Of a DNA stretch of 64,000 bases, positions 39,160 to 52,767 are shown piece after piece; position 1 is the first letter of the stretch; every line of letters starts with the position of its first letter. The translations under genes and the position numbers were made by a program. The notes under the pieces were generated by a model. The model was given only the letters and a program-made list of their open reading frames with translations. It made no database searches and had not been told where the DNA came from. Source of the DNA: Candidatus Altimarinota bacterium (GTDB lineage: Bacteria; Patescibacteriota; Gracilibacteria; UBA4473). The stretch is taken from contig JAGLIF010000004.1 in the NCBI GenBank assembly GCA_023143095.1, positions 1-64,000 of the forward strand. The letters are read 5' to 3'.

Positions 39160-39424
39160 TTAGTCATAAAAAGAATGAAATGAATTACTATAAAATGGGT
39201 TCCTGCCTTCGCAGGAATGAGGGAAGACCATTTTTGTCATCCTGAACGACCCTACTGTCGTCCTGAACTTAATTCAGGATCTCTGTCTTTTTTTCATAAT
39301 AACAAGAAAGACAAAATATCGTAGATCCCGTTTCAAGAACGGGAAGACATCTTTTTCTTACGAGTTTATTAAGTCAGTATTTTTTTAATTGTTAATTTTT
39401 AATTATTCATGGATAATTAATTTG

Positions 39425-45956: not shown

Positions 45957-46558
45957 AAAGAAAAAAGAGTGATATTTTTCACATATTCCACAAAAAGAAT
46001 TCTTTTAAAAAGAGGTTTTCTTCATTTAGCTTTAATAATGAAGGAGAAATTTTTCCCTCATTTCTGCACCCTCTCCTCATCCCTGCGTAGGCAGGAACCA
46101 ATTCTCTGTCTTCCCCACATAAAACAATGTCTTCCCGTTCTTGAAACGGGATCTACGATATTTTGCATTTGTCCTCATCTTTGTTTTTACTTCCCCCTCA
46201 TTCCTGCCTCTCCGCCCTCATCCCTGCGTAGGCAGGGATCTATTTTACAGTGATTCATTTCATTCTTTTTATAACTTAAAAAGAACCAAAAAGTTTTGAG
46301 GGTAAAATAACTCGCTAAGAAGAGTTATTTACCACAAATTTATTTTTCATGTCGCTCAAACACGGTTTTACCCTCAAACTCCCAAGTCTTACTTTTTTGT
46401 AGATAATTTTCTATGAAAAAAGACAGAGATCCTGAATCAAGTTCAGAACGACAATCTTTTTTCTCTCCTCCTTCTTGCCCTCCTTCCTGCACCCTCTCCT
46501 CCTTCCTGCGAAGGCAGGAATCCATTTCCTTTACATGAAAAATTGATAAAATAAAAAT
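45957..46558. repeat. Repeat-rich intergenic region
   Basis: Contains module A hairpins (CCTGCGTAGGCAGG at about 46082-46095, again near 46217-46230 and CCTGCGAAGGCAGG near 46497-46510), module C in inverse orientation (about 46136-46162), the 107-bp element in inverse orientation (46277-46383) and module B in inverse orientation (about 46427-46453). ORFs here are spurious translations of repeats. Confidence 0.8.
46277..46383 (-). repeat. 107-bp three-way-junction element, copy 4
   Basis: Inverse orientation: AAAAAGAACCAAAAAGTTTT, GAGGGTAAAATAACTCGC and GGTTTTACCCTCAAACTCCC. One of the more diverged copies. Confidence 0.75.
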
Positions 46559-47554: not shown

Positions 47555-48649
47555 TTAATTGTTAAATTTGAAATGCATCACATCTCCATCTTTAACGATA
47601 TAAGTCTTGCCTTCCATCCTCATTTTTCCTGCTTCTTTGGCTCCCCCTTCTCCTTCATATTGTACAAAATCTTCATATGCAATTACATCTGCTTTAATAA
47701 ATCCTTTTTCAAAATCCGTGTGAATTTCTCCTGCCGCTTGCGGAGCTGTCGCGCCTTTTCTGATAGTCCATGCTCTCACTTCTTGCACACCAGCGGTAAA
47801 ATAACTCTGCAAACCTAGTAACTCAAAGGCTTTCTGAATCAAATTCTCAAGCCCTGATTTTGTTGTTCCAATCTCTGCTAAAAACTCATGTGCTTCTTCA
47901 TCGGACAAATCAACTAATTCTGACTCTATTTGAGCACAAACCGAAAGAACTGGAATCTCAGGACGAAGAGACATTTTTCCACGAAAATCTGATTCATTAA
48001 AATACATAAAATGATCTTCTGAAGCATTTGCCACAACCAAAAACTTTTTCTCCGTTAATAAATTAAATTTATGAAAGAATTTCTCTTCTTCTTCTGAAAT
48101 ATCCAAAGAACTCGCCAACTGATTACTTTCTAATGCAATTTTTACTTTTTGTAATAGTTCCAATTCTTTTTTCGCATCCTTATCTCCTGTTTTAGCTTTT
48201 CTTCCTACTCGTTCAATTTGCCGATCTACACTTTCTAAATCTGCTAAAATCAATTCTGTCAAAATCACTTCAAGATCCGATTTTGGATCAACTTTCCCTG
48301 CTACATGATGAATTTCTGAAGATTCAAAATCCCGTAAAACATGACAAATAGCGTTACATTCTCTGATATGAGATAAAAATTTATTTCCTAACCCCTCCCC
48401 CTTGCTCGCTCCAGCCACTAATCCAGCAATATCGACAAATTCTACCGTTGATCTTTGCACTCTTTCTGGATTTACAATAGATGCCAACTTGTCCACACGC
48501 ATATCAGGCACTGGCACAATTCCGATATTTGGATCAATCGTACAAAATGGAAAATTCTGTGCATCAGCTTGAGCAGATTTAGTCAAAGCATTAAAAAGTG
48601 TTGATTTCCCTACATTCGGCAAGCCAACTATTCCAATTTTGATGTTCAT
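47555..48649 (-). CDS. ychF: Ribosome-binding ATPase YchF
   Basis: An Obg-family P-loop protein of 364 aa: G1 GIVGLPNVGKSTLFNALTKS, G3 VDIAGLVAGASKGEGLGNKF, a helical hairpin, and a C-terminal TGS-like domain (RAWTIRKGATAPQAAGEIHT). It hydrolyses ATP in preference to GTP and associates with ribosomes. It is transcribed leftward from a promoter TTGAAA-16-TATTAA (48688-48715 on the plus strand). Confidence 0.97.
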   Translation of the reverse strand: MNIKIGIVGLPNVGKSTLFNALTKSAQADAQNFPFCTIDPNIGIVPVPDMRVDKLASIVNPERVQRSTVEFVDIAGLVAGASKGEGLGNKFLSHIRECNAICHVLRDFESSEIHHVAGKVDPKSDLEVILTELILADLESVDRQIERVGRKAKTGDKDAKKELELLQKVKIALESNQLASSLDISEEEEKFFHKFNLLTEKKFLVVANASEDHFMYFNESDFRGKMSLRPEIPVLSVCAQIESELVDLSDEEAHEFLAEIGTTKSGLENLIQKAFELLGLQSYFTAGVQEVRAWTIRKGATAPQAAGEIHTDFEKGFIKADVIAYEDFVQYEGEGGAKEAGKMRMEGKTYIVKDGDVMHFKFNN

Positions 48650-48747: not shown

Positions 48748-48776
48748 TTGACAAAAAATTCTAAAGAATACAAAAT
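48748..48776 (+). promoter_or_regulatory. Candidate promoter of the structured RNA
   Basis: TTGACA at 48748-48753 is a perfect -35; CAAAAT at 48771-48776 (17-bp spacing) or TACAAA at 48769-48774 (15-bp) could be the -10. It lies just before the folded segment at 48788. Confidence 0.4.
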
Positions 48777-48787
48777 GTATTCAACTA

Positions 48788-48950
48788 GAGTGTACGATAT
48801 TTTCTTAGATGCTTCTTCTTCCAATCAATTCTCCTCGGGATTGGAAATTTTGTCTCCCGTGGGAGGCAGAAAACCACACCCACTTAACAAATAGGGGAAA
48901 AGAGTTTCTAAGAAAAAACGGCATTTTGGTGTGTCTACTCGTTTTTTTTA
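48788..48950 (+). ncRNA. Candidate structured RNA of about 160 nt, class unknown
   Basis: Several helices nest correctly: GAGTGTA (48788-48794) with TCTACTC (48934-48940); a perfect 10-bp helix TTTTCTTAGA (48800-48809) with TCTAAGAAAA (48907-48916); a hairpin TTCCAATC / GATTGGAA (48819-48826/48839-48846); and a hairpin TGTCTCC-CGTG-GGAGGCA (48851-48868). The fold is followed by TTTTTTTT (about 48942-48949), like an intrinsic terminator tail. A TTGACA lies about 40 bases upstream. No known class (tmRNA, RNase P, SRP, 6S) could be matched by eye. Confidence 0.45.
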
Positions 48951-48955
48951 TCCGT

Positions 48956-49207
48956 CTAATCACAAAAACCACCTCTTTTAGAAAGGTATAAGGAAACTTT
49001 ATCCTTTATATTCTGAAGATCTTCAGGAGACCCTTTTTCTATTACTTCTTCAATAGAAAATATTCCCTTGCTAGTCTTTATCCTCAAATTATCAATAACA
49101 CCTTTTCCACAAGTATCTTCTGCAAAAGCTTGATGCGATATTACTTCTTTAACTAAAAATTTCCTTTGTTCCTCTTCAATTGAATTAACAGCTTGTCTTT
49201 CTTCCAT
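48956..49207 (-). CDS. Unknown small protein (83 aa)
   Basis: The ATG at 49207 opens 83 codons (MEERQAVNSIEEEQRKFLVK) ending in KRGGFCD. The product is charged and probably helical, with SIEEVIEKGSPEDLQNIKDK in the middle and Cys residues at about 33 and 82; no domain was recognised. There is no signal peptide. It ends 6 bases from the candidate structured RNA and faces it. Codon use and length are plausible for a real gene, but only the ORF supports it. Confidence 0.5.
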   Translation of the reverse strand: MEERQAVNSIEEEQRKFLVKEVISHQAFAEDTCGKGVIDNLRIKTSKGIFSIEEVIEKGSPEDLQNIKDKVSLYLSKRGGFCD

Positions 49208-49413: not shown

Positions 49414-52400
49414 ATGCGAATAAGAAATTTTCGTCGAAAAAGGAAAGGAATTTCATGGATAAAAGAAAAACTTTTTCATAAAAAACAAAAAAGATTTTCT
49501 TTTAAAAAGATTTTTCTTGTTGGAAGTGGCTTATTGATTGCTTTTCTTTTTTTGTATGGAAGTTTTTTCTTACCTTCAGTAAGTGAAGCTGATCAACTCA
49601 GTTTTGTCGAATCTACCATTATTTATGATCGAGCAGCACTAGCAAAGATTGAGAAAAATCCTCAATCCGACCTCACTGAAAATGTACTTTATGTTATTCA
49701 TGGAGAAGAAAATCGAGAATATCTCCCTTTGTCGGAAATCTCCCCTTGGATTACTAAAGCAACTTTAGCTATTGAAGATAATCGATTTTATTCTCATTTT
49801 GGATTTGATGTTTTTGGTTTGACAAATGCTATACTAGGACAGTTTGGTATTGGTACCCCACGAGGTGGATCTACTATTACACAACAGTTAGTAAAAAATA
49901 CTTTTTTAAGTCGAGAACGAACTATTACTCGTAAATTCAAAGAAATTCTTCTATCCATAAAAATGGAGTGGAATTATGAAAAAGATGATATTTTAGAACT
50001 CTATCTCAACAAAATCCCTTATGGTTCTAATTCACACGGAATTGAGGCTGCTGCTAAAACTTTTTTTGGAAAATCATCTAGAGATTTAACACTAGCTGAG
50101 AGTGTTATCTTGGCAAGTCTCCCTAGAGCTCCTACAAAATTTTCTCCTTATGGATCTAATAAAGATCTTTTGATGGGCTTTTATGAATTAAATAAAGATA
50201 CTGGTGAAAAATCCTATAAAAAAGGTCGAAAAGATCTTGTTCTTGAGCGAATGCTTGATCTAAAAATGATCACATTTGAGCAATTCAAACAAGCTTTTGC
50301 AGAAACAAAAGAGCTCGAATTCAAACGAGCACAAACGGATATCAGAGCTCCACATTTTGTCTTTTATGTACGAGAAAAACTTGAAGAAAAGTTTGGAAAA
50401 GAATTTCTCAGGCAAGGAGGATTAAAGATTTTCACCACTCTTGATCCAGAATTACAAACTCGTGCCGAAGAAATCATTCAAACTAAGTCCGCCCACTACT
50501 CTGGAACTTATGGTGCAAAAAATGTAGCACTGGTTTCTATACAAAACGAAACTGGGGAAATTTTATCTTATGTTGGAGGAAAAGATTTTTTTGATGAAGA
50601 AAATGACGGACAAGTCGATGTCCTTACTTCTCGAAGACAACCTGGCTCAAGTTTCAAACCTTTGACCTATGCAACCGCTTTCGAAAATGGATATACTCCA
50701 TCAACCGTATTATTTGATGTAGAAACCGATTTTGGAGGTAATTATACTCCTCAAAACTTTGACGGAATCTTTCATGGTCCTGTTTCTGCTAGACAAGCAT
50801 TGAATGAAAGCTTGAATATTCCAGCTGTAAAAATGGCCTTTTTAGCAACTCCTAAAAAAATCTTAGAAAATGCAAAAAAACTTGGTATAAAAGTTGAAGG
50901 AAATGCAAAGAGACACCAAGTAGGATTAGGACTTGGCGTTGCTGAAATCGAACCGCTTTCTCACATCAATTCTTTTCAAGTTTTCGCTGGAGACGGCAGT
51001 TGGTTCGAACCTTCTGCTATTTTGGAAATTCATAATTCGACAGGTACTATTTTGGAAAAAACTGATATTAAGAAGAAAAAGAAAGAGGGTTTAGATCCTG
51101 AAATTGCCGCTCTCATTCGCCATATTCTGACTGATGAATCTTCTAGACCTACCACCAATGATTTTGACTGGAATGTTCTGCTTCAGCTGGAAAAATGGAA
51201 TAATGGAGCCAAAACAGGAACTTCCAATCGAACCATAAAAAATCCAGAATTTAACAAGGAAGAACCAGAAGATGAAGAAAAAAATCCTAAATTTGTAACC
51301 GCTCCTGGAGATTCTTGGACTATTGGCTTTACCCCACATCTAATTACTGGCGTTTGGGTCGGAAATAATAGAGGAGAACCAATGAAAATTGGAGCTACTG
51401 GACTCGCTGTAGCAGCACCTATTTGGAAAAAATTTATGACTGATGCTCATGATATATTGGTCGAAAATGGAATTGATCCCAAAAAACTATATAATGAACC
51501 AATCCCTCTTAATGTTCGAAATATTAATAAGTTTTCTGGAAAACTCTCTTCTAATCTTACTCCCCCAAAACTCGTCAAAGAAGCCTTTTTTGCTAGTTTT
51601 TCTATTCCCGTAGAAACAGATAATTCTATTAAAATCATTGAAATTGATAAAATTTCTGGGCAACCTGCTACCAGTTACACTCCTTTTTATGCCCGAACAC
51701 AAAAACATGTTTTGAGTTTAAAATCCATTCGCCCCGATATGCCAAACTGGCAAAGTCCTGTGGAAGAATGGCTCAAAAAACACTCTCAATTTGCAACCAG
51801 TCTTGGTTCTATCACAGAAGAAAGTGATACCCCTCTTGAAAGTTCTTTTTCCGTTGATAGATTCTCTCGAATTAGTTCTCTACGAGATGATGTCCACAAT
51901 GATTTTACAAACAAAAATCCCCCAGTGATAAAAATCTTATCCCCGCGAAGTAGCGGAGAAGTTGCTCGTGGAGATATAGAAATAACCGTATCCGTTTCTG
52001 CAAGATTTGGAATGAAGGTTGTCGAATTTTATTTTGATGATCAACTTGTCGCAGATGAAACAAATCCTCCTTTCACAGGTAAATTCAAAATTCCAACCAA
52101 TGTTGAATTTAACAGTAAGCACACCATTCGCGCCGTTGCCATTGATAAATTACTCAATTACTCAGAAGAGGAAATTTCTGTCAAAATAACTCCTGATAAA
52201 AATGCTCCTGAAATTATTTTTTTAGGACCGATAGGAAACCAAAAAATACCGCTAAATTCTGAAATTCAAATCTTAGCAATTATTCGTGATTTTGAATCAC
52301 AAGTAAAAAAAGTTGAATTTTTTCTTGATGAACAATCCTTGGGAACTGTAACAAAACAACCTTTCTCTAAAAACTTCATCTCCAATGGAAAACTTGGTCG

Positions 52401-52767
52401 ACATTCTTTGAAAATTAAAGCGTGGGATGTACATGACAATGTTTCTGAAAAATCAATTCCTGTTATATTTGATAGAGAAAAATTATTAACAATAACTTCT
52501 CCTATAATTGAGAAAATCATAAAATATCGAAATTCTATCTCTATTGATCTCTCTTTTCCAGAAGCTGAAAATATAGAGTTTGCTGAGTTTTTGATTGTTC
52601 AAAATGAAACAGTCCTTTTCCATGAAAAATGGACGGATATAAAAAAATTCAGACAATTCCAAATTCCAAGAAATCTTTCTACCGGAAAAGCAAGAGTTCA
52701 ACTTTTTAGCAAACTAAAAGAGAATGATGGACTTTTATCAAGTCCTGAAAAATCCCTTGAATTTTAG
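49414..52767 (+). CDS. Bifunctional penicillin-binding protein 1A with Ig-like C-terminal domains
   Basis: The order is a basic cytoplasmic tail, a membrane helix (about 37-53), a GT51 transglycosylase (AIEDNRFYSHFGFD, GGSTITQQLVKN, EAAAKTFFGKSSRDLTLAES), a transpeptidase with the nucleophile in GSSFKP (about Ser412), SLN in NESLNIP and KTG at about 600-602, then two Ig-like modules (about 840-1020; PPVIKILSPRSSGEV and APEIIFLGPIG) in the C-terminal part. It polymerises and cross-links peptidoglycan outside the membrane. At 1117 aa it is much longer than most PBP1A proteins because of the tail, which may bind the wall or partners. Confidence 0.96.
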   Translation: MRIRNFRRKRKGISWIKEKLFHKKQKRFSFKKIFLVGSGLLIAFLFLYGSFFLPSVSEADQLSFVESTIIYDRAALAKIEKNPQSDLTENVLYVIHGEENREYLPLSEISPWITKATLAIEDNRFYSHFGFDVFGLTNAILGQFGIGTPRGGSTITQQLVKNTFLSRERTITRKFKEILLSIKMEWNYEKDDILELYLNKIPYGSNSHGIEAAAKTFFGKSSRDLTLAESVILASLPRAPTKFSPYGSNKDLLMGFYELNKDTGEKSYKKGRKDLVLERMLDLKMITFEQFKQAFAETKELEFKRAQTDIRAPHFVFYVREKLEEKFGKEFLRQGGLKIFTTLDPELQTRAEEIIQTKSAHYSGTYGAKNVALVSIQNETGEILSYVGGKDFFDEENDGQVDVLTSRRQPGSSFKPLTYATAFENGYTPSTVLFDVETDFGGNYTPQNFDGIFHGPVSARQALNESLNIPAVKMAFLATPKKILENAKKLGIKVEGNAKRHQVGLGLGVAEIEPLSHINSFQVFAGDGSWFEPSAILEIHNSTGTILEKTDIKKKKKEGLDPEIAALIRHILTDESSRPTTNDFDWNVLLQLEKWNNGAKTGTSNRTIKNPEFNKEEPEDEEKNPKFVTAPGDSWTIGFTPHLITGVWVGNNRGEPMKIGATGLAVAAPIWKKFMTDAHDILVENGIDPKKLYNEPIPLNVRNINKFSGKLSSNLTPPKLVKEAFFASFSIPVETDNSIKIIEIDKISGQPATSYTPFYARTQKHVLSLKSIRPDMPNWQSPVEEWLKKHSQFATSLGSITEESDTPLESSFSVDRFSRISSLRDDVHNDFTNKNPPVIKILSPRSSGEVARGDIEITVSVSARFGMKVVEFYFDDQLVADETNPPFTGKFKIPTNVEFNSKHTIRAVAIDKLLNYSEEEISVKITPDKNAPEIIFLGPIGNQKIPLNSEIQILAIIRDFESQVKKVEFFLDEQSLGTVTKQPFSKNFISNGKLGRHSLKIKAWDVHDNVSEKSIPVIFDREKLLTITSPIIEKIIKYRNSISIDLSFPEAENIEFAEFLIVQNETVLFHEKWTDIKKFRQFQIPRNLSTGKARVQLFSKLKENDGLLSSPEKSLEF

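Follow-up and report, generated by a model that had tools for sequence, protein, structure and literature searches.

The 48788-48950 stretch of the window, by which we mean the whole 64,000-nucleotide stretch of DNA under analysis, is almost certainly the 6S RNA gene, ssrS, of a Candidatus Gracilibacteria member (Patescibacteria). A global regulator of transcription long known in bacteria, 6S RNA mimics an opened promoter and thereby blocks RNA polymerase; most work on it has dealt with Escherichia coli, Bacillus subtilis and a few other organisms. The locus carries a conserved, single-copy RNA, about 160 nt long, that has a promoter of its own and shows both the rod-shaped fold and the sequence motifs of 6S RNA. 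It belongs to a known RNA family and is ordinary in kind; what is new is a copy in Patescibacteria, very small bacteria that have received little study, and the assignment of a function to an otherwise blank intergenic region.

Identification of the 6S RNA gene

The Rfam scan of the whole 64-kb window gave a single match above threshold, to RF00013 (6S/SsrS), which lies at 48779-48936 (+) and spans positions 1-187 of the 187-position model with 46.6 bits. The gathering score (cut-off) of this family being 46.4 bits, the match passes it by only 0.2 bits, and because of this thin margin the identity was tested independently with relatives, lineage models, covariation and E. coli. The host genome, of about 1.2 Mb and 97% complete, holds no other 6S match, and the transcript probably extends from about 48783 up to a U-run.

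Matches to RF00013 were present in 16 of the 60 sampled relatives, one per genome, four of them above the cut-off. The covariance model built from seven Gracilibacteria loci on the correct strand recovered 6S RNA in 18 of 20 genomes of the family and in 123 of 288 genomes of the class, with one match in each. A second lineage model, made from Gracilibacteria sequences alone, scores the window RNA at 133.8 bits (48774-48954). Run on 3 kb around ssrS of E. coli K-12 (locus L142), it gave one match only, to ssrS itself, with a weak score in the right place (18.6 bits, E = 0.00024; match 1479-1685, annotated gene 1484-1666). The initial annotation had left the RNA unassigned and had proposed a covariance-model search against Rfam; that search provided a full-length match above the cut-off, and with the recovery of E. 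coli ssrS by the lineage model the label of unassigned RNA has to be abandoned.

Conserved structure and sequence motifs

The elements of the locus are as follows, all on the + strand.

48748..48753 (+), -35 hexamer TTGACA of the 6S promoter
48771..48776 (+), -10 hexamer CAAAAT, after a 17-bp spacer
48779..48936 (+), 6S RNA, extent of the RF00013 match
48784..48796 (+), closing stem, 5' strand, paired with 48919-48930; helix 1 of the 31-sequence alignment
48800..48809 (+), second helix, 5' strand; helix 2 of the same alignment, register from folding
48812..48825 (+), predicted pRNA template with start at U48825 and pRNA 5'-AUUGGAAGAAGAAG, from alignment with E. coli U44
48815..48822 (+), helix beside the central bubble ('downstream duplex', P2), 5' strand, paired with 48895-48902
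48823..48836 (+), central bubble, 5' side, unpaired in the 31-sequence consensus, with a conserved AAUCAU element
48837..48840 (+), GGGA motif; 48837-48839 pair with CCC 48879-48881
48849..48870 (+), terminal hairpin with loop CGUG, stem 48849-48857/48862-48870
48878..48883 (+), ACCCAC motif, from the Rfam match and the alignment
48882..48894 (+), central bubble, 3' side, region of the '-10'-like element in E. coli 6S RNA
48895..48902 (+), helix beside the central bubble, 3' strand (GGGAAAAG); helix 3 of the 31-sequence alignment
48907..48916 (+), second helix, 3' strand; helix 2 of the same alignment
48919..48930 (+), closing stem, 3' strand, inside the conserved CGGCAUUUUGGU
48942..48949 (+), run of eight U (T) in the sequence, possible terminator tail

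The initial annotation had described a structured RNA of about 160 nt, and its features do lie where it had placed them: region 48775-48952 folds at -52.0 kcal/mol, against -36.3 +/- 3.65 in shuffles (z = -4.31), and none of 200 shuffles did as well. Taken alone, the perfect 10-bp long-range helix formed by 48800-48809 (TTTTCTTAGA) and 48907-48916 (TCTAAGAAAA) is less remarkable, since a perfect Watson-Crick helix of this length also occurred in 1 of 300 mononucleotide shuffles and in 22 of 300 random 163-nt segments of the AT-rich window; it is conservation that settles the presence of a structured RNA.

In seven correctly oriented Gracilibacteria sequences, aligned without recourse to structure, compensatory (two-sided) changes affect 24 of the 43 consensus pairs. 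The larger alignment comprises 31 sequences, each match being read on its own strand and fitted to the structure of the model, and shows such changes in 30 of 43 pairs, with a covariation score of 0.597 against 0.245 +/- 0.011 in shuffles and at most 0.141 in slid structures; the observed values were reached by 0-1 of 500 shuffles. Fitting to the model favours its own structure, and the structure-free alignment agrees with it. Covariation in the 31 sequences supports a closing stem, a large central bubble, an interrupted internal stem and a terminal loop.

Two-sided changes are found in 6 of 14 pairs of the closing stem, where 96.8% of the cells are paired, and in 5 of 7 pairs of the helix next to the bubble (85.9% paired). 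The second helix, which contains the 10-bp pairing, has them in 6 of 6 pairs; in the alignment the window sequence is one base out of register here, and the register from folding is the better one. The closing stem and the long-range helix of the initial annotation are thus both present, and the compensatory changes it had proposed to look for exist. Of its two internal hairpins, the one with the CGUG loop stood, with two-sided changes in 9 of 9 pairs, whereas the other did not.

This other hairpin, 48819-48826/48839-48846, has 8 bp and is preferred by the lowest-energy single-sequence fold, in which it would hide the predicted pRNA start. We rejected it as a conserved element, all eight pairs forming in the window, seven in one relative (L107) and zero to six in the others. 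Nearly specific to the window sequence, it could represent an alternative free state of this 6S RNA.

The 6S sequence elements GGGA...ACCCACCU and CGGCA are present and agree with the Rfam consensus. The GGG-CCC pairing is found in all 31 aligned sequences, and the CG of CGGCA is invariant. Fold, motifs, central bubble, promoter and the divergent placement of ychF all fit 6S RNA and support this identity.

Promoter and genomic context

The TTGACA noted upstream by the initial annotation occupies 48748-48753 and is conserved among the loci of the family, 15 of 17 having TTGAC at this place and the other two TTGCC. The -10 position corresponds to TAAATT/TACATT-like hexamers of the relatives, 17 bp after TTGAC, so that transcription would be expected to start near 48783-48784, where the closing stem begins. 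The eight-U tail was likewise found, as an eight-T run at 48942-48949; its role as a terminator is tentative, no separate hairpin lying directly before it.

Pfam confirmed both neighbours that had been named, a YchF GTPase at 47555-48649 (-) and a transglycosylase/transpeptidase of the PBP1A type at 49414-52767 (+) with two C-terminal Big_7 Ig-like domains. The nearest named relatives of this ychF come from Candidatus Gracilibacteria MAGs. In 10 of 16 relatives of the family, ychF adjoins the 6S RNA divergently. An 83-aa frame at 48956-49207 (-) is convergent with the 6S gene; Pfam gave no match for it, and no homologue adjoins the 6S genes of relatives.

The window also contains an interspersed repeat in at least eight copies, at 46083, 46224, 46506 and 56448 (+) and at 39214, 56803, 57788 and 63803 (-). 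It translates as S-[FS]-L-R-[RK]-Q-[EG]-[PS]-I, has a palindromic DNA core such as CCTGCGTAGGCAGGAACC and looks like a REP/MITE-type element.

Proposed mechanism

The second lineage model aligns U44 of E. coli, the pRNA start of its 6S RNA, with U48825 of the window, where pRNA synthesis is predicted to begin. By analogy, the RNA likely acts by open-promoter mimicry, sequestering the holoenzyme of the primary sigma factor until pRNA synthesis releases it, as in the established 6S model, which derives from studies of E. coli and B. subtilis (reviewed in PMC8876501). As a member of its family, it would mimic an open promoter: the central bubble and the internal stem would bind RNA polymerase carrying the primary sigma factor, which would be held idle as growth slows. 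The 3' side of the bubble, 48882-48894, may play the '-10'-like role described for E. coli 6S RNA (PMC8876501). On the return of nucleotides, the polymerase would use the RNA as a template from U48825, and the short pRNA (about 5'-AUUGGAAGAAGAAG) would open the helix 48815-48822/48895-48902 and set the enzyme free.

The genome encodes one primary-type sigma factor (a 417-aa frame) and three short ECF-like ones, as typed by length and score only. A holoenzyme to sequester thus exists, together with alternative factors that could profit from it.

Alternative explanations

The RNA might resemble 6S RNA and yet bind the RNA polymerase core instead of the sigma holoenzyme, as does the actinobacterial Ms1, which is structurally related to 6S RNA (PMC9130861); it would then make no pRNA. 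We consider this very unlikely: the full-length match is to RF00013, no Ms1-type family appears among the Rfam matches even at E up to 10, and conservation extends to the predicted pRNA start region and the downstream helix. The marginal Rfam score (46.6 vs 46.4) could also be taken to suggest a chance resemblance between 6S RNA and a new structured RNA of Gracilibacteria. Such a coincidence is extremely improbable, as many relatives match independently, E. coli ssrS is picked up by the lineage model where it is annotated, and the RNA matches 6S RNA in motifs, size and fold.

To read the stretch as a cis-acting leader or as coding is to rely on ORFs that exist mechanically, one of 60 codons at 48809 and another of 48 codons at 48748, and the probability of this reading is next to nil. 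The initial annotation had seen no convincing ORF here and had named protein conservation of the 60-codon frame as one observation that would speak against an RNA. This frame was rejected as coding: its start and frame are not conserved, with an ATG in the window only and stops in most relatives, and it matched no Pfam family. A leader fits poorly with the next + strand gene, which begins some 460 bases on with the opposing 83-aa frame in between, and with the neighbours of the 6S RNA, which vary among relatives. Together with the conserved promoter, these observations bear out the earlier view of an independent non-coding RNA, which we identify as 6S RNA.

Distribution in Patescibacteria

RF00013 matched 28 of 380 sampled genomes of the phylum, five of them above the cut-off. 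With the second lineage model, 6S RNA was found in 128 of these 380 genomes and in 150 of 288 genomes of the class; its E-values are approximate, and partial matches of low score around 1e-4 are doubtful. Two matches were found in just one genome of the phylum, which suggests that false positives are rare. Two Patescibacteria genomes outside the class, L134 and L139, also carry 6S RNA candidates; that of L134 passes the RF00013 cut-off with 60.2 bits.

In Patescibacteria, 6S RNA is probably both common and under-annotated. There is good reason to believe that it is widespread and usually single-copy across this group (the candidate phyla radiation), and largely overlooked as most copies do not reach the Rfam cut-off. 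In the open-access papers searched, we found no report linking 6S RNA with Gracilibacteria, Saccharibacteria, CPR bacteria or the candidate phyla radiation; the one paper naming Patescibacteria concerns mitochondrial protein targeting. If this distribution is true, these reduced genomes would keep a global RNA-based control of RNA polymerase, perhaps with lineage-specific release structures. The 6S gene of the window shows a global transcription regulator to be retained in Patescibacteria genomes of 1.2 Mb. By raising the count from 28 to 128 of 380 genomes, the lineage model opens the distribution of 6S RNA across the radiation to testing.

Comparison with known systems

With E. coli 6S RNA (RF00013), the window RNA shares the full-length match, the rod fold with its central bubble, the GGGA...ACCCACCU and CGGCA elements, a pRNA start aligned with U44, its own sigma-70-type promoter and its single copy. 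It differs in being shorter (about 160 nt vs 183 in E. coli) and A+U-richer, and its gene lies beside ychF, whereas that of E. coli lies beside zapA/fau. Unlike E. coli-type 6S RNA, most relatives of the window RNA score near or below the Rfam cut-off. Ms1 RNA of Actinobacteria is also a rod-shaped, 6S-like RNA that binds RNA polymerase, a binding presumed for the window RNA; Ms1 binds the core enzyme, however, and the window RNA has no Rfam match to an Ms1-type family. With B. subtilis 6S-1 RNA, the window RNA has in common the general architecture and the presumed mechanism; on release, the B. subtilis RNA uses a central bubble collapse helix (PMC8876501).
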